From contig NZ_JAFLDR010000035.1 of assembly GCF_017302275.1 (NCBI RefSeq), forward strand, positions 1 to 45,157: 45,157 nucleotides of DNA, read 5' to 3'. Source of the stretch: Sulfuritalea sp. (GTDB taxonomy: Bacteria > Pseudomonadota > Gammaproteobacteria > Burkholderiales > Rhodocyclaceae). Within the stretch, counting starts at the first letter, position 1, and each line of letters opens with the position of its first letter. The notes below the pieces were generated by a model. That model saw only the letters and a list, made by a program, of their open reading frames with translations, ran no database searches and was not told the DNA's origin. Positions 13,400 through 43,694 of the stretch are shown here, piece after piece. The position numbers were made by a program, and so were the translations under genes.

Positions 13400-15262
13400 A
13401 TGAGCGCCATTGCCCGCAAGCCGGCCGAGCTGTTCGTCGATCCGGCCGTCATCCTCGAAGCCCGGCCGGACGGTAGCCGGCTGTTCCGTTCCAAGCTGGA
13501 GCTGCCGGGCTTTGCCCGCTGTTCCGGCGAATGGCTGGAACGCTGGGCGGCCGAGACCCCGGATGCCATCCTGATCGCCGAGCGCGGCGCGGATGGCGAA
13601 TGGGTCAAGGTGACTTACGGGCAGGCGCTGGCGCGCGTCTATCGCATCGCCACCTGGCTGCTCGGGCAGAATCTCTCGCCCGAGCGGCCGGTGCTGGTGC
13701 TCTCCGACAACGGCGTCGAGCATGCCCTGCTGATGCTGGCCTGCCTGCATGTCGGCGTGCCGATCAGCCCGGTCTCGCCGGGCAACTCGCTCTTGTCCAA
13801 GGATTTCCTCAAGCTCAAGGCCAACGTCGAATTGCTTCGCCCCGGTGTCATCTTCGCCGACACCATCGAACGTTTCATGCCGGCGATCAACGCCATCGCC
13901 GGGCTGCATGACGGCGTCGTCGTCGCCGGCAGCCGCAGTGCGCCGCAGGCCGGCACGCTGCCCTTCGCCGAGATCGAAAGAGTCGGCGCTGACGACACGG
14001 CGAATTTTGCAGCAGTCAAGGCGGCATTCGCCAGGATCACGCCCGATACCATCGCCAAGTTCCTGTTCACCTCGGGTTCGGTGGGCACGCCCAAGGCGGT
14101 GATCACCACCCAGCGCATGATGTGTTCCAACGCCGAGATGAAATCCATCATCTGGCCCTTCCTCAACACGCAGAAGCCGGTGATCTGCGACTGGCTGCCC
14201 TGGAGCCACGTCTTCGGCGGCAGCCACAATTTCAACAAGGTGGTTCGCTTTGGCGGCAGCCTCTACATCGACGACGGCAAGCCGCTGCCGGCCCTGCTGC
14301 CGAAGACCGTGCGCAACCTCACCGACGTCTCGCCCACCATCTATTTCAGCGTGCCCCTGGCCTACGCCCTGCTTGTCGCCGAGCTGCGCGACAACGCCGC
14401 CTTGCGCAAGAGTTTCTTCTCGCGCCTGCAGATCATCTTCTATGCCGGCGCCGCGCTGCCGCAATCGACCTGGGACGAACTCGAACGCCTCGCCGTGATG
14501 GAGCTGGGCCATCCCGTGGTCATGCTCTCGTCGTGGGGCTCGACGGAAACCGCGCCGGCCTGCACCGACTGCCACTTCCAGGCCGTGCGCTCCGGCGTCA
14601 TCGGCGTGCCGATTCCCGGTACCACCCTGAAGCTGGTGCCGGTGGCCGACAAGCTGGAAGTCCGCGTCAAGGGGCCCAACCTCTTCCCCGGCTACTGGAA
14701 GCAGCCCGAGCTCACCGCCAAGGCCTTCGATGACGAAGGTTTCTACATGATCGGCGACGCCGTGTCCTTCGTCGATCCGGCGCGCCCCGAACAGGGCCTG
14801 CTGTTCGACGGCCGTGTCGCCGAGGATTTCAAGCTGCTCTCCGGCACCTGGGTCCATGTCGGCAGCATCCGTGTGGCCGGCATCAGCGCCTTGTCGCCGA
14901 TCGCCCAGGACATCGTGCTCACCGGCCATGACCGCGACGACATCGGCTTCCTGGTGTTTCCCAACATCGGCGAATGCCGCCGCCTGGCCGGCCTCGGCGA
15001 CGACGTGCCGGCGGCCCAGGTGGTCGGCCATCCGGCGATCAAGGAGCGGGTACGCGAAGGCATGGTGCGTCTCAAGCAGCACGGCGGCGGTTCATCGACC
15101 TACCCGGCACGCGCCCTGCTGATGGCCGAGCCGCCCTCATCCGAACATGGCGAACTCACCGACAAGGGCTACATCAACCAGCGCGCGGTGCTGACTCGCC
15201 GCGCCGACCGTGTCGTCGAGCTGTACTCCGACGTTCCCGATTCCAGCATCATTTTTATCTGA
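13400..15262 (+). CDS. Feruloyl-CoA synthetase-like acyl/aryl-CoA ligase
   Basis: AMP-forming ligase of 620 aa, close in layout to feruloyl-/p-coumaroyl-CoA synthetases (Fcs/CouL-type role). It would activate a hydroxycinnamate with ATP and CoA. The phosphate loop is TSGSVGTPK at residues 224-232, where the usual Thr after Ser is Val. Family markers include DWLPWSHVFGGSHNF, LYIDDGKPLP, FYAGAALPQSTWDELERLA and SWGSTETAP. The C-terminal lid carries GRVAEDFKLLSGTWVHVG with the expected catalytic Lys. It starts 21 bases after the binding protein. Shadow segment 13981-14003 matches the dispersed repeat in frame (VGADDT). Confidence 0.88.
   Translation: MSAIARKPAELFVDPAVILEARPDGSRLFRSKLELPGFARCSGEWLERWAAETPDAILIAERGADGEWVKVTYGQALARVYRIATWLLGQNLSPERPVLVLSDNGVEHALLMLACLHVGVPISPVSPGNSLLSKDFLKLKANVELLRPGVIFADTIERFMPAINAIAGLHDGVVVAGSRSAPQAGTLPFAEIERVGADDTANFAAVKAAFARITPDTIAKFLFTSGSVGTPKAVITTQRMMCSNAEMKSIIWPFLNTQKPVICDWLPWSHVFGGSHNFNKVVRFGGSLYIDDGKPLPALLPKTVRNLTDVSPTIYFSVPLAYALLVAELRDNAALRKSFFSRLQIIFYAGAALPQSTWDELERLAVMELGHPVVMLSSWGSTETAPACTDCHFQAVRSGVIGVPIPGTTLKLVPVADKLEVRVKGPNLFPGYWKQPELTAKAFDDEGFYMIGDAVSFVDPARPEQGLLFDGRVAEDFKLLSGTWVHVGSIRVAGISALSPIAQDIVLTGHDRDDIGFLVFPNIGECRRLAGLGDDVPAAQVVGHPAIKERVREGMVRLKQHGGGSSTYPARALLMAEPPSSEHGELTDKGYINQRAVLTRRADRVVELYSDVPDSSIIFI
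13981..14003 (+). repeat. Dispersed 25-bp repeat, copy 1 (inside ligase gene)
   Basis: AGTCGGCGCTGACG followed by ACACGGCGA. It matches the consensus at 12 of the last 13 positions and is read in frame as VGADDTA. Confidence 0.65.
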
Positions 15263-15270
15263 AGCAGGCA

Positions 15271-16041
15271 ATGACCGACAAACTCGTAACCCACAGCCTC
15301 GACGGGCTGGTCTACACCATCACCCTGAGCCGCCCGGCGAAGCGCAACGCGATCAGCGACCGCCTGCTCGACGCCCTGGAAAAGGCCTGGGACGCGCGTC
15401 CCGCCGAGGCCCGCGTGGTGATCCTGGCCGGCGCCGGCGAGCACTTCTGCGCCGGCCTCGACCTCTCCGAGCACCAGCACCGCGAACCCTCCGGCGTGAT
15501 GCTGCATTCACAAGGCTGGCACCGCGTCTTCGGCAAGATCCACCAGACCGGGATCCCGGTGGTGGCCGTGCTGCACGGCGCGGTGATCGGCGGCGGCCTG
15601 GAACTGGCCACCTCGACCCACGTTCGTGTCGCCGAAGCGAACACCATGTACCAGTTGCCCGAAGGCCGCCACGGCATCTATGTCGGTGGCGGGGCCTCGG
15701 TGCGCGTGGCGCGCATCATCGGCCCCGGCCGCATGGCCGAGATGATGCTGACCGGGCGCATCTACAGCGCCGAGGAAGGCCAGCAACTGGGCCTGTCGCA
15801 TTACCTGGTCGGCAAGGGCGAAGGCCTGGCCAAGGCGCAGGAACTGGCCAAACGCATCGCCGAGAACGCACCGCTGGCCAACTACGCCATGGTCACCACC
15901 ATACAGCGCATCAGCAACATGTCTTCCGACGATGGCCTTTACGTCGAATCGCTGATGGCGGCCGTGGCGCAGACCAGCCCGGAAGTGGTGGCGCGCATCG
16001 GCTCCTTCCTCAACCGCAAGGGCATGGGACCGCAGACGTGA
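15271..16041 (+). CDS. Enoyl-CoA hydratase/isomerase (crotonase family)
   Basis: Crotonase-fold protein of 256 aa. Oxyanion-hole regions are AGAGEHFCAGLDLSEH (about residues 53-68) and HGAVIGGGLELA (about 105-117); the downstream catalytic-loop segment is QLPEGRHGIYVGGGAS. Start ATG 15271 is eight bases after the ligase stop. In a hydroxycinnamate pathway it would hydrate the aryl-acryloyl-CoA double bond, the role of CouM in Rhodococcus or of hydratase-lyase Ech/FerB elsewhere. It lacks obvious resemblance to the canonical feruloyl-CoA hydratase-lyase beyond the fold. The downstream dehydrogenase and hydrolase favour simple hydration. Confidence 0.85.
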   Translation: MTDKLVTHSLDGLVYTITLSRPAKRNAISDRLLDALEKAWDARPAEARVVILAGAGEHFCAGLDLSEHQHREPSGVMLHSQGWHRVFGKIHQTGIPVVAVLHGAVIGGGLELATSTHVRVAEANTMYQLPEGRHGIYVGGGASVRVARIIGPGRMAEMMLTGRIYSAEEGQQLGLSHYLVGKGEGLAKAQELAKRIAENAPLANYAMVTTIQRISNMSSDDGLYVESLMAAVAQTSPEVVARIGSFLNRKGMGPQT

Positions 16042-16056
16042 CAGCCCTATCCCCAG

Positions 16057-16077
16057 CCCTTTCCCCGGGGGAAAGGG
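16057..16077. repeat. Short palindromic hairpin
   Basis: CCCTTTCCCC and GGGGAAAGGG form a perfect 10-bp inverted repeat around one G, just after the crotonase gene. GC-rich palindromes of this sort are frequent intergenic repeats in proteobacteria. There is no T-run, so termination is doubtful. Confidence 0.6.
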
Positions 16078-16120
16078 TGACCAATGTTCTGCCGCTGCCG
16101 CGGCTTCCGGTAAATGACTT

Positions 16121-16153
16121 GCTGCCTCCTTGGGGCGGCCCGGCGGAGGCAGC
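16121..16153 (+). promoter_or_regulatory. Hairpin that sequesters the amidohydrolase ribosome binding site
   Basis: GCTGCCTCC (16121-16129) pairs perfectly with GGAGGCAGC (16145-16153) around a 15-nt loop. The 3' arm is the Shine-Dalgarno sequence itself, and the ATG follows immediately at 16154. In the transcript this would limit translation of the amidohydrolase unless the stem is opened. Confidence 0.55.
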
Positions 16154-17032
16154 ATGAACCTCGACGAACTCGTCGCGATCGACACTCACACCCACGCCGA
16201 AGTTTCCTGCTGCCAGCCCAAGGACCCCTGGTTCGATGCCTACGAGCGCGCCGCCGACAAGTATTTCAAGAACGCGCACCGGCCGACCATAGACGAGACC
16301 ATCGCCTATTACCGCGAGCGCAGGATCGGCCTGGTGATGTTTGCCGTCGATTCCGAGTCGCACATCGGCAACCGCCGCATCGCCAACGAAGAAGTCGCCG
16401 AGGCGGCGGCGAAGAACAGCGACATGATGATCGCCTTCGCCAGCATCGATCCGCACAAGGGCAAGATGGGCGCCCGCGAGGCGAGGAAGCTGATCGAGGA
16501 GTACGGCGTCAAGGGCTTCAAGTTCCACCCGACGGTGCAGGGCTTCCACCCGCAGGACCGCATGGCCTGGCCGCTGTATGAAGTGATCGCCGAGTACAAG
16601 CTGCCGGCGATCTTCCACAGCGGACACTCGGGCATGGGCAGCGGCATGCGCGGCGGCGGCGGGTTGAAACTTGAAACCTCCAACCCGATGCTGCTCGACA
16701 GCGTGGCGGTGGATTTTCCCGACATGCAGATCGTCATCGCCCACCCGTCATGGCCCTGGCAGGACGAGGCGCTTTCGGTCTGCCTGCACAAGCCCAATGT
16801 CTGGATCGACCTCTCCGGCTGGTCGCCAAAATATTTTCCGCCGCAACTGGTGCAGTACGCCAACACCCTGCTCAAGGATCGCATGCTCTTCGGCACCGAC
16901 TTTCCGCTGATTCCGCCCGACCGCTGGCTCGAGGATTTCGAGGCTGCCGGTTTCAAGGATTCCGTGAAACCGCTGATCCTCAAGCAGAACGCCATCCGAT
17001 TGCTCAAACTCGACCAGGCAGAAAAGAAATGA
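16154..17032 (+). CDS. Metal-dependent amidohydrolase (amidohydrolase_2 family; CouO/PhdB-like role)
   Basis: TIM-barrel amidohydrolase of 292 aa. Metal-ligand candidates are H12 and H14 in DTHTHAE near the N-terminus, FHSGHSG in mid-protein, IAHPSWPW, and the late Asp in FGTDFPL. ATG 16154 is chosen over an upstream in-frame start because GGAGG precedes it. In actinobacterial hydroxycinnamate clusters a similar hydrolase stands beside a CoA ligase, hydratase and dehydrogenase and is proposed to cut the beta-ketoacyl-CoA without a thiolase. The same gene set here suggests that role. ATGA overlap with the next gene shows coupling. Alternatives are a decarboxylase of the same superfamily. Confidence 0.8.
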
Positions 17033-18837: not shown

Positions 18838-20625
18838 ATGACTAATTACACCGCCCCGCTCGCCGACATGCGCTTCCTGTTGCAGGAAGTCACGGGCCTC
18901 GCCGCCATCGCCCAGCTTCCCGGCTGCGGCGACGCCACCCCCGATACGGTCGACGCCGTGCTGGAAGAAGCGGGCAAGTTCGCCGCCGGCGTGCTGGCGC
19001 CGCTCAACGCCGTCGGCGACCGCGAAAGCTGCCGCCTCGACAATGGCAAGGTCGTCACGCCCGCCGGCTGGAGCGAGGCCTACAAACAGTTTGCCGAGGG
19101 CGGCTGGGTCGGCCTCGGGCTCTCGCCCGACTTCGGTGGCCAGGGCCTGCCCAAGTGCGTGGCGACGCCGGTCTGGGAAATGTGGTTCTCCGCGAACACG
19201 GCATTCACCATGCTGCCCCAGCTCAACACCGGCGAGTCCGAGGCCATCCTGCTCGCCGCCAGCGACGAGTTGAAAGCCACCTACCTGGAAAAGCTGGTCA
19301 CCGGCGAGTGGGGCGGCACCATGAACCTGACCGAGCCGCAGGCCGGCTCCGACCTCGCCGCGATCCGCACCCGCGCCGAGCCGCAGGCGGACGGCAGCTA
19401 CCGCATCAGCGGGCAGAAGATCTTCATCTCCTACGGCGACCACGAGATCACGCCCAACATCGTGCACCTGGTGCTGGCCCGCCTGCCCGACGCACCGCCC
19501 GGCGTCAAGGGCATCTCGATGTTCCTCGTGCCCAAGTACCTGGTGAATGCCGACGGCAGCCTCGGCGCGCGGAACGACGTGCGCTGCGTCGGCCTCGAAC
19601 ACAAGCTCGGCATCCACGGCAGCCCGACCTGCGCCATGAGCTTCGGCGACACGGGCGGGGCGGCAGGCTGGATCGTCGGCGAGCCCAACCGCGGCCTCGA
19701 ATACATGTTCATCATGATGAACGAGGCGCGCTTCGGCGTCGGCGTGCAGGGCATCGGCATCGGCGAGCGGGCCTGGCAGCAGGCGCTGGCCTTCGCGAAA
19801 GAGCGCGTGCAGGGCCGCGACGCGGTCACCGGCGCGGTCGGCAAGCCGATCATCAATCATCCCGACGTCAAGCGCATGCTGCTGACCATGCGCGCCCGCA
19901 TCATGGCCGCGCGCGCGCTGGCCTACACGGCGGCGGGCTGGTTCGACCTCGCCCGCCACTCGCCCGACAAGGCCGCCGCCGACAAGGCCCGGCGTTACAC
20001 GGACCTCTTGATGCCGGTGGTCAAGGGCTGGAGCACCGAGCTGTGCCAGCAGGTCTGCTACGACGCGATCCAGGTACATGGCGGCATGGGCTTCGTCGAG
20101 GAAACGGGCATCGCCCAGCACTACCGCGATGCGCGCATCATCACCATCTACGAAGGCACGACCGGCATCCAGGCCAACGACCTGGTCGGGCGCAAGGTGC
20201 TGCGCGAGAACGGCGCCACGCTGCGCGAACTGATCGTCGAAATGCGCGGCGTGGGCGCCGAACTCGCTGCCACGGAAAGCCTGCGCCCGCTGGCCGAGCG
20301 CCTCGAAGAAGACATCGCCGCACTGGAACGCGCGCTCGACTGGATCCTGGCCAACGGCAAGGAACACATGGCCGCCGTGCTGGCCGGCGCCGTTCCCTTC
20401 CTGCAACTGCTGGGCACCGTCTGCGGCGGCTGGCAACTGGCGCGCGTCGCGCTCGCCGCGACAAATCCCGCCACCGCCGAACGCCACGCCCCGGACTACC
20501 TGCGAGGACTGATCGAACTGGCGCAGTTCCACGCCCACGCCCTCGGCGTGCAGGCCCCGGCACTGGCCGCCGCAATAGTCGGCGCTGGCGACACGGTGTC
20601 CGCCAGCGAATTCGCGCTGGGCTAG
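18838..20625 (+). CDS. Acyl-CoA dehydrogenase with extended C-terminus (DmdC-like architecture)
   Basis: FAD acyl-CoA dehydrogenase of 595 aa, about 200 residues longer than the short-chain type. It resembles the long class containing 3-methylmercaptopropionyl-CoA dehydrogenase and many uncharacterised aromatic-cluster enzymes. The flavin/substrate segment MNLTEPQAGSDLAAIRT lies near 162-178, and the general-base Glu is expected in the IYEGTTGIQANDLVGRK block. Residues after about 450 form the extra helical domain. In this cluster it may desaturate dihydro-hydroxycinnamoyl-CoA so that phenylpropanoates join the same route (inference). The last codons coincide with a dispersed repeat copy (VGAGDTVSA). 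Confidence 0.88.
   Translation: MTNYTAPLADMRFLLQEVTGLAAIAQLPGCGDATPDTVDAVLEEAGKFAAGVLAPLNAVGDRESCRLDNGKVVTPAGWSEAYKQFAEGGWVGLGLSPDFGGQGLPKCVATPVWEMWFSANTAFTMLPQLNTGESEAILLAASDELKATYLEKLVTGEWGGTMNLTEPQAGSDLAAIRTRAEPQADGSYRISGQKIFISYGDHEITPNIVHLVLARLPDAPPGVKGISMFLVPKYLVNADGSLGARNDVRCVGLEHKLGIHGSPTCAMSFGDTGGAAGWIVGEPNRGLEYMFIMMNEARFGVGVQGIGIGERAWQQALAFAKERVQGRDAVTGAVGKPIINHPDVKRMLLTMRARIMAARALAYTAAGWFDLARHSPDKAAADKARRYTDLLMPVVKGWSTELCQQVCYDAIQVHGGMGFVEETGIAQHYRDARIITIYEGTTGIQANDLVGRKVLRENGATLRELIVEMRGVGAELAATESLRPLAERLEEDIAALERALDWILANGKEHMAAVLAGAVPFLQLLGTVCGGWQLARVALAATNPATAERHAPDYLRGLIELAQFHAHALGVQAPALAAAIVGAGDTVSASEFALG
20577..20598 (+). repeat. Dispersed 25-bp repeat, copy 2 (end of acyl-CoA dehydrogenase gene)
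   Basis: AGTCGGCGCTGGCG then ACACGGTG. It is read in frame as VGAGDTV at the C-terminus, in a part of the protein that need not be conserved. Confidence 0.65.
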
Positions 20626-23811: not shown

Positions 23812-25281
23812 ATGAAGCGACGCGAACTCTTGAAGCATACCCTGCTTGCTGCCGGCGCCGGCCTGAGCGGCATGGCGCCGGCATTGGCGCAGACGGCGCC
23901 GGCAGTTGGAGCGCCGGGAAAGCGTGTGGAGCTCGAAATGCTCAAGGGCCAGGAAGGCGTGGGCAATCCTCGCGAGGCGCATGCCTATGCGATGGGCATG
24001 CAGGCTTTCGAATATGGCTTCCCGCTCATCTACATGGCCAACTTGATGTGGAAGTGGTCGGCCGATCCGACATCGGCGCTGAAGCCGCTGAACGCATGGA
24101 TCCAGACCAAGGAGTTTGTTGCAACCTCGAACTACCGGGACGGTGGCTCCTTCAACACCGACACTGTGTACCAGGCCGCGTTTGTCGACCTGCGCAAGGG
24201 CCCGATGGTGATGACCAGCGGCGACCCCGAAGGTCACTACTCCTCGATCCAACTGTCGGACCTGTATACCAACAACTTCGCCTACATCAGCAAGCGTTCC
24301 GGAGGGCCTGTCTTTGGCAACTTCCTGCTCGTGCCGCCAGGCTGGACTGGCTCGGTGCCCGAGGGCAGGTTCGACCGCGTGCTGCGGTGTGAACAGAAGT
24401 GGATCTTCCTGCTCTACAGGCTGCGCATCGACCAGGAAGATCCGAAGGAAATTGCCTGGGCCAAGGCCAAGTACGCCAGTTCGAAGATCCTGCCGATGGA
24501 TGATTTCCTCGCCGGCCGCGCGTTCGTGGCCAACGACTTCAAGGTCTTCGACCTGGCCAAGGTGGGGCGAGTTCCGCTGCGCCCCTTCATCATCCTCAAT
24601 CACATGCTGGCCGAGAACCCGCCTCCGGAGTCCGCCGAAATACTGCTGCAAGGCTTCAAGACCGTGAACATCGGCCCGGGCCTTGACCTGGGCAAGAACG
24701 ATGCGGACACCCAGCGCGGTCTGATGCGCGCCGCGCGGGACGCATTGCCGGCACTGCGCAGCCAGATCGAACGCCCCTGGGCACGCGCCGTGAATGGCTG
24801 GTACTACTTCCCCACGGATGTCGGGCGTGCGAACACCACGAACTACCTGATGCGCTCGGCCTGGCAGTCACTGTGGGGCATCGTGGCGCACCCTCCCTTC
24901 GAATGCACCTATCTCTGGGCCTCCGCGGACCAGAACGGCGAGCGCCTCAACAGCCAGGGCAGGTACGAGCTCTACATGCGCAAGGACCAGTTTCCCAAGG
25001 TCGAAGCCTTCTGGTCATTCACCATGTACCAGGACTTCAATCTGGTGGTCAACGAGATCAACCGCTGGGCCATCCGCGAGAACATGAAGGGCTTGAAGTT
25101 CGACGCCGACGGCGGACTGCGCATCTACATCCAGGCCGAGCGGCCGTCGGAAGACAAAATGAGCAACTGGCTGCCGACGCCCAAGACCGGCAACTTCAAT
25201 CTGACCATGCGCAACTACATGCCGGCGCCGGAGATCGTCGAGCAGCGCTATGACCCGCCAGTGCTGAGGCGTGTTGGCTGA
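23812..25281 (+). CDS. DUF1254/DUF1214 exported protein
   Basis: Protein of 489 aa built from an N-terminal DUF1254 region (GMQAFEYGFPLIYMANLMW, NYRDGGSFNTDTVYQAAFVDL) and a C-terminal DUF1214 region (AWQSLWGIVAHPPFECTYL, FWSFTMYQD). The start MKRRELLKHTLLAAGAG followed by ALAQ resembles a Tat or Sec signal with twin arginines. No enzyme activity is established for this pair as far as I can say. It stands 35 bases after the alkylsulfatase, and its stop overlaps the GMC oxidase start by 11 bases, so it probably works with that enzyme in the cell envelope. Confidence 0.85.
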   Translation: MKRRELLKHTLLAAGAGLSGMAPALAQTAPAVGAPGKRVELEMLKGQEGVGNPREAHAYAMGMQAFEYGFPLIYMANLMWKWSADPTSALKPLNAWIQTKEFVATSNYRDGGSFNTDTVYQAAFVDLRKGPMVMTSGDPEGHYSSIQLSDLYTNNFAYISKRSGGPVFGNFLLVPPGWTGSVPEGRFDRVLRCEQKWIFLLYRLRIDQEDPKEIAWAKAKYASSKILPMDDFLAGRAFVANDFKVFDLAKVGRVPLRPFIILNHMLAENPPPESAEILLQGFKTVNIGPGLDLGKNDADTQRGLMRAARDALPALRSQIERPWARAVNGWYYFPTDVGRANTTNYLMRSAWQSLWGIVAHPPFECTYLWASADQNGERLNSQGRYELYMRKDQFPKVEAFWSFTMYQDFNLVVNEINRWAIRENMKGLKFDADGGLRIYIQAERPSEDKMSNWLPTPKTGNFNLTMRNYMPAPEIVEQRYDPPVLRRVG

Positions 25282-26896
25282 TTCTCCCTTGTCCGCTGCC
25301 GGAGCCTGCGACTACGACTGGATCGTGGTCGGCTCTGGCTTCGGCGGCAGCGTCGCCGCGCTGCGCCTGGCCGAGAAGGGCTACAAGGTGGCGGTGCTGG
25401 AATGCGGTCGCCGTGTCGCCGACGCCGACTTTCCGGCCTCATCGTGGCACATCGGCCGCTTCTTCTGGGCGCCGGCGCTGGGCCTGCGCGGCATCTCGCG
25501 GGTCTCGCTGTTCAAGGACATCCTGATCGGCTCGGGGGCCGGCGTCGGCGGCGGCAGCCTGGTCTATGCGAACACGCTTTATCGCGCCAACCCCGCCTTC
25601 TTCGCGCACCCGCAGTGGGCCGGCCTCGCCGACTGGGGCGCGCTGCTGGCGCCGCACTACGAAACCGCCGAGCGCATGCTGGGCGTGCAGACCGTACCCT
25701 GGGAGAGCGAGAACCAGAAACTGTTGCGCGCCATGGGCGAACACTTCGGCGCTGCCGATACCTTTCGCCGCACGCCCTGTGCCGTGTATTTCGGCGCGGC
25801 CGGTGTCACCGTGCCCGACCCCTATTTCGGTGGCGCCGGGCCGGACCGTACCGGCTGCACGCGCTGCGGCGGCTGCACCACGGGCTGCAACGTCGGCGCC
25901 AAGAACACCCTGGTCAAGAACTACCTCTGGTTCGCCGAGAAACTCGGCGTCGACGTCCTGCCCGACACCGAGGTCGCCGACATCCGGTCGCTGGATGACG
26001 ATGGCGAAGCCGGCTACGTCGTCACCACGCGCCGGCCAGGCGCATGGTTCGGTGGTGAAGGCCGCCGCCTGCGCGCGCGCGGTGTGGTGGTGTCCGCCGG
26101 CGCGCTGGGTACCAACCGGCTGCTGGCGAGTTGCAAGCACGGCGGCGGCCTGCCGCGCCTGAGCGACCGGCTGGGCCAGCTGGTGCGCACCAACAGCGAA
26201 TCCATCCTCGCCGTGACCTTGCCCGACGCGACGCGGAAAGTCACCCACGATGTCTCGATCAGCGCCAGCATCCACGTCAGCCACGACACCCACATCGAAC
26301 TGGTCAGCTATGGCGATCACGCCAGCTACATGAAGTTCTTCTTTACCCTGCTGACCGGCAACGGCACGCGCTTGACGCGGCCGCTGCTGCTTCTCGCGCA
26401 GGTCCTGCGCCATCCCTTGCGCTTCCTCAAGTCGCTGTCGCCCGTCGGCTGGAGCCATCGCAGCGCGATACTGCTCGTGATGCAGCCGCTGGACAACGCG
26501 CTTGCCTTCGTCGCCAAGAAGCGCCGCTTCGGCCGCGGCGTACGCCTGGCAACGGAACAGCATGCCGACAAGCCCAACCCGACCTTCATCGCCGAAGGCA
26601 ACGCGGCCGCAGCCTGGCTCGCGCAGCATACCGGCGGCATCGCGCAGAGCATGGTGCCCGAGGCGCTGGCCAACATCCCGACCACGGCCCACATCCTCGG
26701 TGGTGCCGTGATTGGCGGCGATGGAGCGCGCGGAGTAGTGGATTGCGAGGGCCGCGCCTTCGGCTATCGCAACCTGATTGTCTGCGACGGCTCGATCATG
26801 CCGGCCAATCCCGGCGTCAATCCCAGCCTCACCATCGCAGCGCTGGCGGAACACGTCATGAGTTCCGTGTTGCCGGCCGCGGGCCCTCGGCAATGA
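25271..26896 (+). CDS. GMC-family FAD oxidoreductase (cholesterol oxidase/alcohol oxidase-like)
   Basis: Glucose-methanol-choline oxidoreductase of 541 aa. The FAD fold is VVGSGFGGSVAALRLAEKG near residue 19. The FAD-binding loop is GSGAGVGGGSLVYAN, and the C-terminal catalytic region holds HILGGAVIG, DGSIMPANPGVNPSLTI. A cysteine-rich insert, CTRCGGCTTGCNVGAK, could bind an iron-sulfur cluster and is shared with some sterol and long-chain alcohol oxidases of bacteria. Translation starts at GTG 25271 within the end of the previous gene. The substrate is probably a hydrophobic alcohol. Part of its N-terminal region coincides with a minus-orientation repeat copy. Confidence 0.86.
   Translation: MLADSPLSAAGACDYDWIVVGSGFGGSVAALRLAEKGYKVAVLECGRRVADADFPASSWHIGRFFWAPALGLRGISRVSLFKDILIGSGAGVGGGSLVYANTLYRANPAFFAHPQWAGLADWGALLAPHYETAERMLGVQTVPWESENQKLLRAMGEHFGAADTFRRTPCAVYFGAAGVTVPDPYFGGAGPDRTGCTRCGGCTTGCNVGAKNTLVKNYLWFAEKLGVDVLPDTEVADIRSLDDDGEAGYVVTTRRPGAWFGGEGRRLRARGVVVSAGALGTNRLLASCKHGGGLPRLSDRLGQLVRTNSESILAVTLPDATRKVTHDVSISASIHVSHDTHIELVSYGDHASYMKFFFTLLTGNGTRLTRPLLLLAQVLRHPLRFLKSLSPVGWSHRSAILLVMQPLDNALAFVAKKRRFGRGVRLATEQHADKPNPTFIAEGNAAAAWLAQHTGGIAQSMVPEALANIPTTAHILGGAVIGGDGARGVVDCEGRAFGYRNLIVCDGSIMPANPGVNPSLTIAALAEHVMSSVLPAAGPRQ
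25411..25434 (-). repeat. Dispersed 25-bp repeat, copy 3 (inside GMC gene)
   Basis: On the minus strand it reads GGAAAGTCGGCGTCGGCG then ACACGG. The GMC frame reads it as RVADADF. Confidence 0.55.
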
Positions 26897-28545: not shown

Positions 28546-28571
28546 GAAAAGTCGGCGCCCGCCACACGGCG
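28546..28571 (+). repeat. Dispersed 25-bp repeat, copy 4
   Basis: GAAAAGTCGGCGCCCGCC then ACACGGCG. It lies 55 bases before the orphan membrane protein gene, in direct orientation with copy 5 on the other side. Confidence 0.6.
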
Positions 28572-29256: not shown

Positions 29257-29282
29257 GAAAAGTCGGCGCCCACCGCACGGCA
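29257..29282 (+). repeat. Dispersed 25-bp repeat, copy 5
   Basis: GAAAAGTCGGCGCCCACC then GCACGGCA, 40 bases after the orphan membrane protein gene and about 710 bases from copy 4. Confidence 0.6.
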
Positions 29283-29359: not shown

Positions 29360-30322
29360 ATGAACCTCAAGCAACTCGAATACTTCGTGCGCGTCGCCGA
29401 ACTGGGCAGCTTCAGCAAGGCGGCGATGATCCTAAACATCGCGCAGCCGGCGCTGTCGCGCCAGGTGCGCCTGCTCGAAACCGACCTCCACGCAAACCTG
29501 CTGACCCGCACCGGGCGCGGCGTGATGCTGACCGACGTCGGCCAGCGCCTGTTCGACCACAGCGTCGGCATCCTGCAACTGGTCGCGCGCGCCACCGAGG
29601 ACATCGAATCGGCGCGCGACGAACCAGCCGGGCGCATCGTCATCGGCCTGCCGCCGAGCATGGGCCGGCTGCTGACGCCGCCGCTGGTCGACGGCTTCCG
29701 GCGCAGCCTGCCCAAGGCGCGGCTGGCCATCGTCGAGGGACTGTCCGCCCACCTCGCGGAGTGGATCGCCACCGGCCGCGTCGACGTCGGCCTGCTGCAC
29801 AACCCCGAATCGCAGGCCGCCATCGAAGTCACGCCGGTGCTCGACGAGCCGCTCGGCGTCGTCAGCCCGGCCGGCGGCGGCACGGGCGTAGCAAAGAAGA
29901 AAGTCGGCGCCGGTGATACGGTGACGCTGGCCGCACTGGCGCGCCTGCCGCTGATCCTGCCCGAACGCAGCCATGCCATCCGCAAGCTGCTCGAAACGCA
30001 GGCCGCGCTGAGCGGCCACAAGCTGAATGTCGCGCTGGAAATCTCCAGCGTGCAGTCCATCCTGGAACTGGTGCGCGGCGGCCACGGCCACGCCATCCTG
30101 ACGCCCACCGCGCTGATCGCCTCCGGACAACCCGAAGCCTTCGTGTTGCGCAAACTGGTCGAGCCCAGCCTGACCAGCACCCTGTGCCTCGCCGTCTCCG
30201 CGCACAAGCCGGCGACGCCATTGAGCAAACACGTGCTGCGCCTGCTGCGCGAACTGATCCTGGCGGCGGCGGTGCCGATGCCATCGCTGCCGACCGGGAA
30301 CGCGCGCAGCAAGGTTCGATAG
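29360..30322 (+). CDS. LysR-family transcriptional regulator (Nac/CynR-like branch)
   Basis: LysR regulator of 320 aa. The N-terminal domain is MNLKQLEYFVRVAELGSFSKAAM... with LNIAQPALSRQVRLLE as recognition region. The effector domain shows GRIVIGLPPSMGRLL and VDVGLLHNP. The segment AKKKVGAGDTVTL near residues 177-189 coincides exactly with a dispersed repeat copy and looks like an inserted surface loop, since relatives usually run straight from the Pro-Ala turn to a LPLILP strand. No divergent partner is evident and its targets are unknown; the lig operon lies 1.9 kb downstream beyond two toxin-antitoxin pairs. Confidence 0.87.
   Translation: MNLKQLEYFVRVAELGSFSKAAMILNIAQPALSRQVRLLETDLHANLLTRTGRGVMLTDVGQRLFDHSVGILQLVARATEDIESARDEPAGRIVIGLPPSMGRLLTPPLVDGFRRSLPKARLAIVEGLSAHLAEWIATGRVDVGLLHNPESQAAIEVTPVLDEPLGVVSPAGGGTGVAKKKVGAGDTVTLAALARLPLILPERSHAIRKLLETQAALSGHKLNVALEISSVQSILELVRGGHGHAILTPTALIASGQPEAFVLRKLVEPSLTSTLCLAVSAHKPATPLSKHVLRLLRELILAAAVPMPSLPTGNARSKVR
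29899..29923 (+). repeat. Dispersed 25-bp repeat, copy 6 (inside lysR)
   Basis: GAAAGTCGGCGCCGGTG then ATACGGTG, read in frame as KVGAGDTV in the effector domain of the LysR protein. Confidence 0.7.
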
Positions 30323-31291: not shown

Positions 31292-31317
31292 GAAAGTCGG
31301 TGCTGACGATACGGCGG
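31292..31317 (+). repeat. Dispersed 25-bp repeat, copy 7 (intergenic)
   Basis: GAAAGTCGGTGCTGACG then ATACGGCGG. It is one of the best consensus matches and lies in DNA without a gene. Confidence 0.7.
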
Positions 31318-34844: not shown

Positions 34845-34922
34845 ATGGGAGGGGCGGGCCTTCAATTCGCCTTTTCGCCTTTTCGTCTGCCTTGGTGCGG
34901 CATTGCTGCACGCAATTTACTG

Positions 34923-35855
34923 ATGGGCATGCCGGCCAACCCGCTGCAGTGGTCCATCGGCCTCGTCGGTTACGGCGAGGTCGGGCGCATCCTCGCCGAG
35001 GACCTGCGCGCGCGCGGCGTGGCGAATGTCCTCGCCTACGACATCAAGTTCGGCACCGACGACGACGCGCCCTTGCTGGCCCATGCCGCGCAACACGGCG
35101 TGCGGCCCATGACCGGCCATGCCTTCCTGGCGAAGGCCGCCGACCTGCTGATTTCCGCCGTCACCGCCGACCAGACGCTGGCGGTCGCCGTGGCGTCAGC
35201 GCCGACTTTCGCGCCGGGCGCATGGTTCCTCGATGTCAACTCGGCCTCGCCGAACGCCAAGATCGAGGCCGCCAGCCTGATCGAGGCTGCCGGCGGGCGC
35301 TATGTCGAGGGCGCGGTGATGACCTCGGTGCCGCCGCATCGCATGCGCGTGCCGCTGCTGCTGGGTGGCCCCGCCGCCGCCGAGCTGGTGCCGCTGCTGA
35401 ATGACCTTGGCTTTGCCGCCACGGTCGCCAGCGACAACCTCGGCGTCGCCTCGGCCACCAAGATGTGCCGCAGCGTGATGATCAAGGGGCTCGAAGCCAT
35501 GGTCATCGAGAGCTTCACCGCGGCGCGCGCCTATGGTGTCGAGGATGCCGTGGTCGCCTCGCTCTACGAAACCTTTCCCGGCATCGACTGGGAAAAGCAG
35601 GCGAGCTACTTCTTCCAGCGCGTGATCGAGCACGGCCGCCGCCGCAGCGAGGAAGTGCGCGAAGTGGCGCAGACGGTGCGCGAGGCAGGCCTTACGCCGT
35701 GGTCGGCGCAGGGCACGGCGGAGCGCCAGGCCTGGGTCGCCGACCTGGCCGACGCCGGCGTGTTCGGCACGCGCGGCAGCAGCGAATTCGCCCGCGGCGG
35801 CGACTGGCGCATCGAGGCGGACCGCATGCTGGCGGCCGCGAAGGCAAAGGACTGA
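34923..35855 (+). CDS. NAD(P)-binding dehydrogenase-like protein with DUF1932 domain
   Basis: Protein of 310 aa. It has an N-terminal Rossmann domain of the beta-hydroxyacid dehydrogenase type (IGLVGYGEVGRILAEDLRARG, then FLDVNSASPNAK) and a C-terminal all-helical DUF1932 domain (LGVASATKMCRSVMIKGLEAMVIE). It has neighbours in many lig clusters, but its reaction is not established to my knowledge; a 2-keto acid or semialdehyde reductase is plausible. ATG 34923 is chosen for the sensible N-terminus over an earlier in-frame start. Residues near 90-100 (AVASAPTFAPG) are encoded by a minus-orientation copy of the dispersed repeat. Confidence 0.8.
   Translation: MGMPANPLQWSIGLVGYGEVGRILAEDLRARGVANVLAYDIKFGTDDDAPLLAHAAQHGVRPMTGHAFLAKAADLLISAVTADQTLAVAVASAPTFAPGAWFLDVNSASPNAKIEAASLIEAAGGRYVEGAVMTSVPPHRMRVPLLLGGPAAAELVPLLNDLGFAATVASDNLGVASATKMCRSVMIKGLEAMVIESFTAARAYGVEDAVVASLYETFPGIDWEKQASYFFQRVIEHGRRRSEEVREVAQTVREAGLTPWSAQGTAERQAWVADLADAGVFGTRGSSEFARGGDWRIEADRMLAAAKAKD
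35186..35210 (-). repeat. Dispersed 25-bp repeat, copy 8 (inside DUF1932 gene)
   Basis: On the minus strand it reads GAAAGTCGGCGCTGACG then CCACGGCG. The gene reads the opposite sense as AVASAPTF. Confidence 0.75.
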
Positions 35856-35856: not shown

Positions 35857-36783
35857 ATGGAATTCCAGAAAACTCCAGGCTGGCTCGACTGGTACGCCGT
35901 ACCGTCAGCGCCGACTTTCAGGGTGCCCGCCGGCAGCGTCGACGCGCACTGCCATGTCTTCGGCCCCGGCGCCGAATTTCCCTACGCGCCGGAGCGCAAG
36001 TACACGCCCTGCGACGCCTCGAAAGCGCAGCTCTTCGCCCTGCGCGACCGCCTCGGCTTCGCCCGCAACGTGGTGGTGCAGGCCACCTGCCACGGCGCCG
36101 ACAATCGCGCCATGGTCGATGCGCTGGTCAACTCGAATGGAAAGGCGCGCGGTGTCGCGACGGTCAGGCGCGCGGTCACCGACGACGAGCTGCGGGCCAT
36201 GCACGCGGCCGGCGTGCGCGGCGTGCGCTTCAACTTCGTCAAGCGCCTGGTGGATTTCACGCCGAGGGACGAACTGATGGAGATCGCCGCGCGCATCGCG
36301 CCGCTGGGCTGGCACGTGGTGATCTATTTCGAGGCGGTCGACCTGCCCGAACTGTGGGATTTCTTCACCGCACTGCCGACCACCATCGTCGTTGACCACA
36401 TGGGCCGCCCCGATGCGAGCAAGCCGGTCGACGGGCCCGAGTTCGAGCTCTTCGTCAGGTTCATGCGCGAGTATCCGAACGTCTGGAGCAAGGTCAGTTG
36501 CCCCGAGCGGCTTTCCGTCTCCGGGCCGAAGGCGCTGGACGGCGAGCCGGGTTTGGAACATGGTGCCTATCGCGATGTCATTCCATTCGCCCGCCGCATA
36601 GTCGAAACCTTCCCCGACCGCGTTCTGTGGGGCACCGACTGGCCGCACCCGAACCTCAAGGACCACATGCCCGACGATGGCCTGCTGGTCGATTTCATTC
36701 CCCATATCGCGACCACGCCGGAGTTGCAGCGCAAACTGCTGGTCGACAACCCCATGCGCCTGTATTGGCCGGAGGAGAACTGA
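35857..36783 (+). CDS. ligI: 2-pyrone-4,6-dicarboxylate hydrolase (LigI)
   Basis: Amidohydrolase-superfamily lactonase of 308 aa that opens 2-pyrone-4,6-dicarboxylate to oxalomesaconate. Catalytic signatures are VDAHCHVFGPG with two His near residues 31-33, QATCHGADNRAMVDAL, VDHMGRPD and WGTDWPHPN with the general-base Asp. The gene starts one base after the previous stop and overlaps nothing; ligA follows after one in-frame stop. The N-terminal stretch AVPSAPTFRVPAG coincides with a minus-orientation repeat copy, where relatives also have a variable Pro-rich segment. Confidence 0.93.
   Translation: MEFQKTPGWLDWYAVPSAPTFRVPAGSVDAHCHVFGPGAEFPYAPERKYTPCDASKAQLFALRDRLGFARNVVVQATCHGADNRAMVDALVNSNGKARGVATVRRAVTDDELRAMHAAGVRGVRFNFVKRLVDFTPRDELMEIAARIAPLGWHVVIYFEAVDLPELWDFFTALPTTIVVDHMGRPDASKPVDGPEFELFVRFMREYPNVWSKVSCPERLSVSGPKALDGEPGLEHGAYRDVIPFARRIVETFPDRVLWGTDWPHPNLKDHMPDDGLLVDFIPHIATTPELQRKLLVDNPMRLYWPEEN
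35895..35919 (-). repeat. Dispersed 25-bp repeat, copy 9 (inside ligI)
   Basis: On the minus strand it reads GAAAGTCGGCGCTGACG then GTACGGCG, differing from copy 8 at only two positions. In the ligI frame it gives AVPSAPTF. Confidence 0.75.
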
Positions 36784-39391: not shown

Positions 39392-40387
39392 ATGCAACAA
39401 CGCCGCCTCGGAGAATTCAACGTCTCGGCCCTCGGCCTCGGCTGCATGAACCTCAGCCACGCCTATGGCACGCCGCCACTGCCCGAACAGGCGGGCAAGC
39501 TGCTGCTGCGCGCGCTCGACCATGGCATCAATTTCTTCGACACCGCCGCGCTCTATGGCTTCGGCAACAACGAAACCCTGCTCGGCAATGTGCTCAAACC
39601 GCATCGCTCGAAGATCGTGCTCGCCAGCAAATGCGGCATGACCGGCGTCGACGGCAAGCGCGTGATCGACGGCCGTCCGGCGACGCTCAAGCGCACCTGC
39701 GACGAATCCCTGCGCCGGCTGCAAACCGACGTCATCGACCTCTACTACCTGCATCGCTGGGACAAGCAGGTGCCGATCGAGGACAGCGTCGGCGCGCTGG
39801 CCGACCTGGTGCAGGCCGGCAAGATCCGTGCGATCGGTTTGTCCGAAGTGTCGGCGCCCACGCTACGGCGAGCGCAGGCGGTGCACCCGATTGCCGCCCT
39901 GCAATCCGAGTATTCGCTATGGACCCGCAATGCCGAACTCGGCGCCTTGGAAGCCTGCCGCGAACTGGGCACCGCCTACGTTGCCTTCAGCCCGCTGGCG
40001 CGCGCCTTTCTCACCGGCATGCTGCGCGACCCCGAAACCCAACTGGAGGCCAAGGACATCCGCCGCCAGATGCCGCGCTTCGACGCGGCCAACTACGCCC
40101 GCAACCTTGAGCTCTTGCCCGAGTACCAGCGCATCGCCGGCGAGGCCTGCTGCACGCCGGCGCAACTGGCGCTGTCCTGGCTGCTGGCGAAGGACGACAA
40201 CATCATTCCGATCTTCGGCACCCGGCAGCCGGAGCATCTTGACGACAACGCCGGGGCGGCCGCCGTGGCGCTCGACGGCGGCATCGTCGCGCGCCTCGAC
40301 GCGCTCATCAACCAGCAGACCGTGACGGGCCCGCGCTACAACGCGGCGACCGAGTTGGAAATCGACACCGAAACATTCTCGAAATGA
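39392..40387 (+). CDS. Aldo/keto reductase
   Basis: Aldo/keto reductase of 331 aa with a TIM-barrel AKR core. Tetrad residues are visible in FFDTAALYGFGNNE (Asp, Tyr), LASKCGM (Lys) and LYYLHRW (His). NADPH-binding motifs near the end include FGTRQPEHLDDNAGA. It is closest to the AKR13/YajO-like bacterial group, whose substrates vary. ATG 39392 gives the standard N-terminus MQQRRLGEFNVSALGLG. It is the first gene of a short run with a second ligA/ligB pair and pobA, so it may reduce an aldehyde or keto compound in the aromatic pathway; this is inference. Confidence 0.88.
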   Translation: MQQRRLGEFNVSALGLGCMNLSHAYGTPPLPEQAGKLLLRALDHGINFFDTAALYGFGNNETLLGNVLKPHRSKIVLASKCGMTGVDGKRVIDGRPATLKRTCDESLRRLQTDVIDLYYLHRWDKQVPIEDSVGALADLVQAGKIRAIGLSEVSAPTLRRAQAVHPIAALQSEYSLWTRNAELGALEACRELGTAYVAFSPLARAFLTGMLRDPETQLEAKDIRRQMPRFDAANYARNLELLPEYQRIAGEACCTPAQLALSWLLAKDDNIIPIFGTRQPEHLDDNAGAAAVALDGGIVARLDALINQQTVTGPRYNAATELEIDTETFSK

Positions 40388-40403: not shown

Positions 40404-40760
40404 ATGAGTAGCGGCAAGCAGAAGCGGGCGATACCGGGCACCACACTGTTCGACGGCGACATGGCGCGCAAGGGTTACGCGCTGAACAAGATGTGCTTTT
40501 CCTTCAACTCGGCGGACAACCGCGCCGAGTTCAAGGCCGACCCCGAGACCTACTGCAACAAGTGGGGCCTCAACGAGCAGCAGAAGACGGCGGTGCTCAG
40601 CCTGCAGGTGCTGGACATGCTCGCCGCGGGCGGCAATGCCTACTACCTGGCCAAGCTGGGCGGCATTTACGGCCTCGACATGCAGGACATCGGCGCCCAG
40701 CAGACGGGCATGACCAAGGACGAGTTCAAGGCGAAGCTCGTCGCAGCGGGAAAAAACTGA
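40404..40760 (+). CDS. LigA-family extradiol dioxygenase small subunit (second copy)
   Basis: Small subunit of 118 aa related to LigA: IPGTTLFDGDMARKGYALNKMCFSFN, KADPETYCNKWGL, GGNAYYLAKLGG and TGMTKDEF. It is shorter than the LigA at 36784-37227 and lacks the GGRS motif and C-terminal tail, so it is a clearly separate paralogue. It is followed after one base by a second catalytic subunit gene. The pair may act on a different catechol carboxylate, or on protocatechuate under other conditions. Confidence 0.85.
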   Translation: MSSGKQKRAIPGTTLFDGDMARKGYALNKMCFSFNSADNRAEFKADPETYCNKWGLNEQQKTAVLSLQVLDMLAAGGNAYYLAKLGGIYGLDMQDIGAQQTGMTKDEFKAKLVAAGKN

Positions 40761-40761
40761 C

Positions 40762-41601
40762 ATGGCAACGATAATCGGCGGCATCAACGTCACTCACGTG
40801 CCCTACATCGGCCGTGCCATCGCCAACAAGCTGCAGCAGGACCCTTACTGGAAGCCCTTCTTCGACGGCTTCCCGCCCATCCACGACTGGCTGGCAAAGC
40901 AGAAGCCCGACGTCGCGGTGGTCATCTACAACGACCACGGGCTGAACTTCTTCCTCGACAAGATGCCGACCTTCGCCGTCGGTGCCGCGGCCGAATACAG
41001 CAACGCCGACGAGGGCTGGGGCATCCCGACCCTGCCGCCCTACAAGGGCGAACTGGACCTGTCCTGGCACATGATCGACTCGCTGGTCGAGGAGGAATTC
41101 GACATCGTGACCTGCCAGGAAATGCTGGTCGACCACGCCTTCACGCTGCCGCTGGAACTGCTCTGGCCGAACCAGAAATCCTGCCCGCTGCGCACCGTGC
41201 CGGTCTGCGTCAACACCGTGCAGTTCCCCCTGCCGACGGCGGCGCGCTGCTTCAAGTTCGGCCAGGCCATCGGCCGCGCCATCGAATCCTGGGACTCCGA
41301 CGCGCGCGTCGTGGTGATCGGCACCGGCGGGCTCTCGCACCAGCTCGAAGGCCAGCGCGCCGGCTTCATCAACAAGGAATTCGACCTGATGTTCATGGAA
41401 AAGCTGATCACCGATCCGCTCTGGGTGACACGCTATTCGATCGCCGACCTGGTCGAGCTGACCGGCACCCAGGGCATCGAGCTGCTCAACTGGCTGACCA
41501 CCCGCGGCACGCTGTCCGGCGAAGTGGCCAAGGTGCATTCCAACTACCACATCCCGATTTCGAACACCGCCTCGGGCCTGCTGGCGATGGAAGTCGTCTG
41601 A
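40762..41601 (+). CDS. LigB-family extradiol dioxygenase catalytic subunit (second copy)
   Basis: Type II extradiol dioxygenase of 279 aa. Iron-site residues are present: His in VTHVPYIG, His in YNDHGLNFF, Glu in GTQGIELLNW and the catalytic His in GTGGLSHQLEG. Compared with the first LigB, the segment before the metal Glu is TGTQG instead of SGSEG, and the region around VPVCVNTVQFPLPTAARC differs. Those features recall gallate-type enzymes, where MATIIGG-like starts are also common. Substrate could be protocatechuate, gallate or a methylgallate; sequence alone does not decide. It lies 30 bases before pobA. Confidence 0.88.
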   Translation: MATIIGGINVTHVPYIGRAIANKLQQDPYWKPFFDGFPPIHDWLAKQKPDVAVVIYNDHGLNFFLDKMPTFAVGAAAEYSNADEGWGIPTLPPYKGELDLSWHMIDSLVEEEFDIVTCQEMLVDHAFTLPLELLWPNQKSCPLRTVPVCVNTVQFPLPTAARCFKFGQAIGRAIESWDSDARVVVIGTGGLSHQLEGQRAGFINKEFDLMFMEKLITDPLWVTRYSIADLVELTGTQGIELLNWLTTRGTLSGEVAKVHSNYHIPISNTASGLLAMEVV

Positions 41602-42807
<1,206 letters not shown>

Positions 42808-42819
42808 CGCACTTCAGGG

Positions 42820-42841
42820 CAAAAGTCGGCGCCCCACGGGG
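42820..42841 (+). repeat. Dispersed 25-bp repeat, copy 10 (truncated)
   Basis: CAAAAGTCGGCGCCCC then ACGGGG. Only the left half is well kept. It lies 12 bases after pobA and about 140 before the ankyrin gene. Confidence 0.45.
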
Positions 42842-42979
42842 ACTTCCTTCGGTCGCCGGCGCCACGGCGACGATCGACTGCCGGGGCCGATGCGCCGCAG
42901 TTCGTTTGGCCCTTCGGGCGGGACTGGGGCATACTCGGCTCCCGCCCGCGGCGGACCACCGGATTTCGCAGGAGCCCGA

Positions 42980-43654
42980 ATGAACACAGTCACCCCACCC
43001 CGTCGCCCCCCCTTGCCGCTGTTTGTCGCGCTGCTCGCCGGCGGACTGCTCGCGGCCTGCGACCGCAACGCTCCGCCGCCGGAACAGCAAGCCGCGGCCC
43101 CGGCCGTCAGCAGTCCATGCGCGATGCCGATCATCGCCACCAATGCCGAGATGGGCGCGGCCGACGCCGCGCTCATCGCCGCCATCGTCACCGGCGAGGC
43201 CGGTGTCGCCAGCGCGGCGATCGAACGCGGCGCGAACGTCAATGTGGCCGGCGCCCTCAAGCGCACGCCGTTGTTCTTCGCGGCATTCTGCGATCGCCCG
43301 GCGCTGGTCACCATGCTTCTGGAAAAAGGCGCGAAGCCCGACCTGGCCGACGCCAATGGCATGCCGCCGCTGCATGCCGCCGTGGTGGTCGGCAGCGTCG
43401 AAACGGCGAAGCTGCTGCTCGCCAGCGGCGCCGGCATCAACAGCCGCGATCCCGCCGAGCGCAGCGCTCTGCACCTGGCGGCGGCGACCAACCAGAAGGC
43501 CCTGGTCGACCTGTTGTTGGCCGCCAAGGCCGATACTTCGCTGCGCGACAAGAGCGGCAAGACCGCGGAGGCCCTGGCCCGCGACAACGGACACTCGGCA
43601 ACCGCGGACGCGATCAAGGCTCAGGGAAAGCCGAAGGCGCCACCGGCGAAATAG
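42980..43654 (+). CDS. Ankyrin-repeat lipoprotein
   Basis: Protein of 224 aa with a lipoprotein signal: hydrophobic FVALLAGGLLAAC gives a lipobox LAAC near residue 27. A Pro/Ala-rich linker and four to five ankyrin repeats follow, for example NVNVAGALKRTPLFFAAF, GMPPLHAAVVVGSVETAKLLLASGAG and ERSALHLAAATNQKALVDLLLAA. Start ATG 42980 follows CAGGAG. It would hold partner proteins at the membrane surface of the periplasm. It stands alone between pobA and a reductase on the other strand, with repeat copies on both sides. Confidence 0.85.
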   Translation: MNTVTPPRRPPLPLFVALLAGGLLAACDRNAPPPEQQAAAPAVSSPCAMPIIATNAEMGAADAALIAAIVTGEAGVASAAIERGANVNVAGALKRTPLFFAAFCDRPALVTMLLEKGAKPDLADANGMPPLHAAVVVGSVETAKLLLASGAGINSRDPAERSALHLAAATNQKALVDLLLAAKADTSLRDKSGKTAEALARDNGHSATADAIKAQGKPKAPPAK

Positions 43655-43668
43655 GCGCGCGGCGCCGA

Positions 43669-43694
43669 CGCCGTGGCGCCCGCGCCGACTTTTC
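43669..43694 (-). repeat. Dispersed 25-bp repeat, copy 11
   Basis: On the minus strand it reads GAAAAGTCGGCGCGGG then CGCCACGGCG. It lies 14 bases after the ankyrin gene, inverted relative to copy 10. Confidence 0.55.

Follow-up and report, generated by a model that had tools for sequence, protein, structure and literature searches.

A dispersed 27-bp repeat in the genomes of Sulfuritalea and related Rhodocyclales as a candidate DNA uptake sequence

We have analysed a dispersed repeat that a first-pass annotation had noticed at eleven positions of a 45,157-nt stretch of Sulfuritalea sp. (contig NZ_JAFLDR010000035.1 of assembly GCF_017302275.1; “the window” below refers to this whole stretch). 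The genome to which it belongs, labelled G000 here, comprises 4.41 Mb in 88 contigs. The repeat is a real, genome-wide feature of which the window gives a small view, and our analysis points to a candidate DNA uptake sequence, in which ~27 bp would serve as a genome watermark and let members of a Rhodocyclales clade preferentially take up DNA of their own kind; we give this reading a probability of about 0.6. A shade less confidently, yet still rather in favour than against, we propose that it would be a third, independently evolved system of DNA self-recognition, namely a GC-rich uptake tag with dialects in environmental Rhodocyclales (relatives of Sulfuritalea, Sulfurisoma and Rugosibacter), outside the Neisseriaceae and Pasteurellaceae and with a receptor specificity not yet described. 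PMC12616744 places uptake sequences in only two bacterial families so far. What the data provide for the uptake reading is the number of copies, the sharp motif, the strand balance, sites that are mostly ungapped or without missing residues in homologues, even spacing, dialects, restriction to a clade, absence from a conjugative region, and the presence of ComEC, DprA and ComP-like/FimT-like pilins.

The first-pass annotation described a repeat of ~25 bp and suggested counting it genome-wide and inspecting its strand bias. In the whole G000 genome, its pattern has 461 matches, and a wider pattern (the 24-bp core with A or G at position 14, up to 3 mismatches) has 623, each against 2 for a control in which the pattern is read backwards; both strands are used equally (313 forward, 310 reverse). 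Within the window, the claim that the copies are far above chance was borne out, as 7 matches with up to 3 mismatches were found and none in any of 100 dinucleotide shuffles. Locations and weight matrix were worked out on 845 kb of sampled sequence (19% of G000, window included), and genome-wide statements on location rest on that share. There, 106 seed sites gave a 27-bp consensus, RAAAGTCGGCGCTGGCGAYACGGCGAY, with abrupt edges and flanks without signal. When a weight matrix scanned the stretches on which it had been trained, it found 146 sites of at least 12 bits versus 2 in the reversed sequence, and 115 of the 146 score at least 30 bits, leaving little middle ground. The information content of the motif is ~33 bits, while 13.5 bits would specify 146 sites in 845 kb. 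GGCG occurs three times within it, and two occurrences of GGCGAY lie 8 bp apart; a binder that contacts the DNA repeatedly may account for this. The motif is not a clear palindrome; by inspection only, an imperfect internal dyad can be seen (GTCGGCGCTGRC). It is also the most over-represented 11-mer in samples of G000 and of G313 (z 36 and 33), the latter being a closed genome of the same genus from which 20 evenly spaced samples were taken, with replichores assigned by GC skew.

With gene calls from a home-made hexamer model, the 146 copies were distributed as 83 in genes, 55 intergenic and 8 at gene edges, in sequence of which 81% of the bases are coding. Coding copies occupy all six frames and both strands, 51 in sense and 33 in antisense orientation to the gene, and one combination of frame and strand is strongly preferred (44 of 84 coding copies), which is read as the peptide KVGA[GD]DTA. 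Outside genes, the copies tend to follow gene ends: 29 of the 37 lying up to 100 bp from a gene are at 3′ ends, a distribution that disfavours a promoter or regulator site, and divergent gaps hold 4 of 56 intergenic copies although they make up 20% of the intergenic bases. A role as terminator was likewise rejected. Inverted pairs are absent, and co-directional gaps hold 22 copies on the gene strand and 12 on the other, which gives no preference to the orientation that would place CGACTTT at the end of the transcript. The copies are spaced more evenly than at random (mean 5.1 kb over 97 intervals on four contigs, coefficient of variation 0.79), with 4.1% of the 97 intervals below 500 bp versus 9.3% expected; no two copies lie within 100 bp of each other, and the 3 pairs closer than 400 bp are all direct. 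Relative to replication, 27 copies were on the leading and 43 on the lagging strand in the G313 samples (p 0.07), and 58 and 67 in those of G000 (p 0.47), these being samples rather than whole chromosomes. A replication-strand bias is weak or absent, and there is no strong polarity.

Comparison of coding copies with their homologues indicates how the copies may have arisen. We kept alignments of at least 50% identity spanning 12 residues on both sides of the site, leaving out rows with stops, G000 against itself and four query-genome loci. Many copies are common to related genomes (74 of 103 compared pairs). The 29 pairs with a motif-less homologue derive from 26 copies, and at least one row of copy L051:309 is a shadow frame, since that copy was read in two frames. 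Fifteen of the 29 are ungapped near the site, while the gap falls in the motif-bearing row in 7 (the homologue being longer), in the homologue in 6 and in both in 1; hence no residue is missing from the homologue in 22 of the 29. Among the 16 motif-less pairs with at least 70% identity, 11 are ungapped, and no homologue lacks 8 or more residues. In the motif-less pairs, the nine motif residues show 37.5% identity versus 70.6% across the alignments, indicating that the copies sit in variable segments. Three window copies (13979, 35186 and 35895) are each in register with a motif-less homologue of 74–78% identity. To judge from these alignments, most copies look like re-written variable segments and a minority could be inserts; copying by substitution in permissive sites, as in known uptake sequences, would thus be the main route, with exceptions. 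At the coding copies examined (26 copies, 29 pairs), homologues from other genera have not kept the motif bases, the reverse of the retention that the first-pass annotation had named as telling against its repeat.

Between G000 and G313, orthologues of at least 60% identity share 10 of 12 and 10 of 14 coding copies. In a score-based test, 15 of 22 copies keep at least 18 bits versus 7.9 expected from the substitutions elsewhere in the same genes; 5 of 27 copies with an orthologue alignment gapped inside the motif were set aside, and the 22 are not independent because reciprocal pairs of one site are counted twice. Fourfold sites agree at 297 of 315 positions inside shared copies and at 4623 of 7186 outside (54 pairs), a comparison that is biased since it is conditioned on both copies being present. 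Two window proteins have few homologues, found in 3 and 2 of 30 genomes, own genome included.

One large region of G000 is devoid of the motif. At C1:80001-200000 (L120-L125), where GC content is lower (0.56–0.585), no copy was found in 120 kb against ~24 expected, given the 130 copies contained in the other 645 kb of sampled sequence outside C1 (Poisson 3e-11). Genes of the region include those for TraC, a coupling protein, TraI_2 and a DNA methylase, and it is likely an integrative conjugative element (ICE). A conjugative element that has newly arrived would lack a signal long resident in the genome, while a repeat that is actively mobile would be expected to have entered it. Depletion in recently acquired mobile DNA, which is a hallmark of uptake sequences, is seen here in one region picked post hoc; in Neisseria, atypical distributions of the DNA uptake sequence (DUS) mark ICEs (PMC7371117).

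The motif is restricted to a clade. In a family sample of 219 genomes, 24 hold 263–751 copies of the core (up to 2 mismatches), and these are every sampled member of six genera (7, 6, 5, 4, 1 and 1 genomes). G292 follows with 77 copies and G271 with 42, and the remaining 193 genomes have 21 or fewer; counts of a few are noise, as the reversed control reaches 6 in one genome. In an order sample (250 genomes), any match at a stricter setting was found in 22, four of them rich, and in a class sample (274 genomes) nine besides G000 had any match, one or two each with up to 1 mismatch. Records with the exact pattern, among the matches listed, are mostly labelled Rhodocyclales, Rhodocyclaceae, Sulfuritalea, Sulfurisoma or Rugosibacter, together with single metagenome bins labelled Burkholderiaceae, Zoogloea, beta proteobacterium and Gammaproteobacteria. 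A midpoint-rooted ComEC tree of 30 genomes places its 10 rich members within one supported group of 14, which also includes G292, G271, G301 and G187.

Several of these genomes use dialects, which were counted with up to 4 mismatches, in 100 kb each for G257, G020 and G355. At this setting the reversed control is high in some genomes, amounting to 45 against 163 sites in G000, 18 against 94 in G313, 8 against 13 in G248, 2 against 27 in G257, 5 against 27 in G020 and 2 against 26 in G355; nothing is therefore claimed for G248. G257 favours AAAAGTCGGYGCTGGCGRGACGGCG (GCGRGACGGCG), copies of G020 end in GGGACGGCA, and about 1/3 of the sites in G355 have ACGCCG instead of ACGGCG. In G292 the dialect is AGTCGACGCTGG, where GTCGACGCTGG replaces GTCGGCGCTGG, and AGTCGACGCTGGCGNNAC has 142 matches with up to 1 mismatch. 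Set beside the ComEC tree, the dialects follow phylogeny, as do those of known uptake sequences. No other dialect of comparable strength was found in 120–140 kb each of the poor or sparse genomes G187, G271 and G267, whose top 11-mers differ from the motif (z 6.5 to 10.9, in smaller samples).

The first-pass annotation had likened the repeat both to uptake signals and to in-frame inserted elements. The former likeness fits best, and the latter fits less, as 22 of 29 homologues have no missing residue and 4 of 29 miss 8 or more. Its statement that the repeat is longer than an uptake signal holds against the Neisseria DUS (up to ~13 nt) but not against the uptake signal sequence (USS) of the Pasteurellaceae, for which PMC12616744 gives up to 32 nt. 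With the Neisseria DUS the repeat shares many copies inside and outside genes, dialects following phylogeny and an atypical content in conjugative elements (as described in PMC3630211 and PMC7371117), and the G000 host has a pilin of the ComP_DUS family; it differs in its unrelated sequence, its length (~27 bp), its lower density and the lack of inverted pairs. Like the Pasteurellaceae USS (5′-AAAGTGCGGT plus AT-rich tracts), it is a long extended motif starting with AAAGT. Known uptake sequences, the USS among them, are reported to prefer one orientation in reading frames (PMC2346458), to be compared with the 51 same-strand and 33 antisense copies here. Unlike the USS, the motif has no AT-rich flanks, possesses a second conserved block (ACGGCG), lacks inverted pairs and resides in another host class. 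The repeat thus shares most of the testable hallmarks of DUS and USS, but not the inverted pairs, and we file it as a candidate.

From these resemblances we infer an uptake bias, a receptor and a molecular drive, which might operate as follows. On the model of ComP and DUS, the motif on free DNA would be recognised by a DNA-binding minor pilin belonging to a type IV competence pilus, and fragments bearing the motif would be imported via ComEC and then recombined. Copies would arise by point substitution where the proteins tolerate it, spread by recombination, since fragments with better copies would be imported more often, and drift into dialects. ComEC and DprA were found in all 30 genomes, motif-rich and motif-poor, and a ComP_DUS-family pilin in 29, all except G292. 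In G000, this pilin (contig C6, ~73.2–73.7 kb), whose closest solved relatives by sequence are type IV pilins, adjoins a GspH-type, FimT-like pilin, within whose gene a degenerate motif (17.9 bits) lies. This pair of minor pilins (L145:12570-13725, minus strand) are candidates for the DNA receptor. Being equally present in motif-poor genomes, the competence machinery is uninformative in itself; it permits uptake but singles out no receptor.

A number of observations weigh against an uptake sequence. Among the sampled G000 copies there are no close inverted pairs, unlike DUS and USS, even if inverted pairs acting as terminators are a frequent feature of these sequences and not a defining one. 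Motif density, ~170 per Mb, is lower than that of the Neisseria DUS, for which PMC3630211 gives ~1900 in 2.2–2.3 Mb, and in G313 more copies lie on the lagging than on the leading strand (43 to 27, p 0.07). In 4 of the 29 motif-less homologues the site is short of 8 or more residues, in two of the four cases within one protein family, so that some copies may be inserts. By raw mismatch count, motif sites show no excess conservation between G000 and G313: the median is 4 of 24 in motif windows as in control windows, and up to 4 mismatches are seen in 15 of 27 motif sites versus 59% of 8867 control windows. The motif-free 120 kb is a single region, chosen after the counts were seen. Moreover, G187, G301 and G271 lie inside the ComEC group yet have few copies, and among the 30 genomes no gene was found to track the motif (ComEC, DprA and the ComP_DUS-family pilin were checked), since every motif-poor relative tested has ComEC and DprA and the pilin is near-universal, yet absent in the dialect-bearing G292. 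Our literature searches found no uptake experiment in this clade. In the full text of open-licence literature, which is partial in its coverage, no paper carried the motif sequence in any of four spellings, and no open-licence paper linked Rhodocyclales with “DNA uptake sequence”. Among the papers listed by three broader searches, none mentions Sulfuritalea, Rhodocyclaceae or Rhodocyclales, respectively; with coverage partial, a precedent may be in print.

As the main rival we see a site bound by a protein that organises or segregates the chromosome (a nucleoid protein, a matS-like system or similar), kept evenly spaced and away from promoters; we regard this reading as unlikely. Even spacing, the use of both strands and of coding and non-coding places, the few copies in divergent gaps and their absence from the conjugative region would all suit such a site. 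Its information content, on the other hand, is far beyond need (33 versus 13.5 bits), and by eye there is no macro-domain clustering across the 20 G313 samples, which hold 0 to 7 copies each, the sole empty one having the lowest G+C. In addition, the shifts of dialect and the stray copies in other families would be easier to explain by exchange of DNA. Somewhat less likely still is a small non-autonomous mobile element, of the REP/RAYT type or inserted in frame, that was copied into hundreds of places. Repetitive extragenic palindromic (REP) sequences and bacterial interspersed mosaic elements (BIME), with their REP-associated tyrosine transposases (RAYT), are short dispersed repeats, mostly extragenic and palindromic, and the palindromic elements of Rickettsia are repeats inserted in frame. 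Our repeat resembles the former in being short, dispersed and present in hundreds of copies, in genomes among which G000 has one RAYT-like gene (Y1_Tnp) with a motif copy ~75 bp after it. Indeed, such a gene with a motif copy ~60–100 bp after it was seen in 3 of 5 rich carriers (L156 on contig C63 of G000, L195 in G313 and L191 in G257, in differing orientation; not in G248 or G355). The high similarity of the copies and the 4 of 29 homologues lacking 8 or more residues at the site would also agree with mobility. Against it, 83 of 146 copies lie inside genes, no homologue among the 16 with at least 70% identity lacks 8 or more residues, the conjugative region is without copies, and most sites are common to G000 and G313 (10 of 12 and 10 of 14). 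The Y1_Tnp transposase was matched in 18 of 30 genomes, motif-poor ones included, while no match was obtained in 5 of the 10 rich genomes, one of which is 85% complete. A RAYT/REP origin is therefore disfavoured, for a repeat that is mostly intragenic, not clearly palindromic and without a matched RAYT gene in half of the rich genomes. As to the Rickettsia elements, our motif is likewise read in frame in many unrelated proteins, but it is not an insertion in most examined pairs, is much shorter and is also common outside genes.

A polar signal of recombination or replication, such as Chi or the FtsK orienting polar sequences (KOPS), would equally be clade-specific and spread genome-wide in hundreds of copies. 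Signals of this type are strongly strand-biased and much shorter, while our samples show no strong leading-strand bias (27 versus 43 in G313, 58 versus 67 in G000), and we consider it improbable. Lowest of all stands the notion of a shared peptide (KVGA[GD]DTA) or conserved protein segment without any DNA signal. The same frame and strand in 44 of 84 coding copies would be in keeping with it; however, the remaining coding copies occupy five other frames, 55 of 146 copies are intergenic, and motif-less homologues do not keep the peptide. Six-frame use, together with antisense and intergenic copies, refutes an explanation at the protein level.

If the repeat is indeed an uptake sequence, this third case, unrelated to the other two and located in environmental bacteria, would mean that self-tagging evolves repeatedly. 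It would also supply a new pair of receptor and motif with natural dialects, by which the origin of uptake sequences (receptor bias versus selection for recombination) could be put to a direct test. Should the repeat serve some other purpose, a clade-specific signal of 27 bp with hundreds of sites per genome is still without explanation in the literature searched.

Coordinates of the window copies are collected in Table 1. Ten of the eleven positions of the first-pass annotation were recovered as full copies, shifted by 0–2 bases, on both strands, in genes and between them, as had been described; the copies at 35186 and 35895 do differ by two bases. The remaining position, near 42820, had been listed as a half copy, and rightly so: AAAAGTCGGCGC is present and the sequence diverges thereafter, so this copy is probably degenerate. 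Three further copies, two weaker and one marginal, appear in the table. With regard to homologues, the copy at 13979 faces QAGADPTGK in the L084 homologue (75% identity, ungapped), and those at 35186 and 35895 align without gaps to the motif-less L208 of G274 (74% and 78% identity, respectively). At 29900, the L051 homologue is shorter by 7 residues immediately ahead of the site.

Table 1. Motif copies in the 45,157-nt window, with strand, context and weight-matrix score
Feature	Position	Strand	Context	Score (bits)
Motif copy	13979..14002	+	In frame, AMP-binding enzyme gene (13400-15262), peptide RVGADDTAN	39.0
Motif copy	20575..20598	+	Towards 3′ end of acyl-CoA dehydrogenase gene (18838-20625)	33.5
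Motif copy	25409..25432	-	Antisense, GMC/FAD oxidoreductase gene (25271-26896)	35.9
Motif copy	28548..28571	+	Intergenic (home-made gene caller), 42 bp past gene end	30.2
Motif copy	29259..29282	+	Intergenic (home-made gene caller), 42 bp past gene end	29.6
Motif copy	29900..29923	+	In frame, LysR regulator gene (29360-30322)	34.9
Motif copy	31293..31316	+	Intergenic, convergent genes either side	33.4
Motif copy	35186..35209	-	Antisense, NAD-binding dehydrogenase gene (34845-35855)	38.4
Motif copy	35895..35918	-	Antisense, close to start of amidohydrolase gene (35857-36783)	34.5
Motif copy	43669..43692	-	Intergenic, convergent genes either side	31.2
Weaker motif copy, absent from first-pass annotation	1478..1501	-	Antisense, branched-chain amino-acid permease gene	26.2
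Weaker motif copy, absent from first-pass annotation	39847..39870	+	In aldo/keto reductase gene	25.4
Marginal motif copy	6121	+		16.2
Half copy, AAAAGTCGGCGC	42821..42832	+		Negative (full motif)

Some minor observations were made outside the window. Five genomes of other families (G035, G201, G083, G011 and G148) have 2–5 copies each (0–3 mismatches), partly as neighbouring pairs 1–8 kb apart; such pairing suggests stretches transferred from the motif-rich clade, or contamination in fragmented assemblies. In G187 (L211-L217), repeated 11-mers around CTGGGGGTCCAT and CGATGGGATCG occur in 6–8 copies in 140 kb and may come from one repetitive gene. Finally, contig C1 of G000 carries at 17577-75173 on the minus strand (L116-L119) one open frame of ~19,200 aa (57.6 kb) with seven motif copies, presumably, at a guess, a giant repetitive surface protein.

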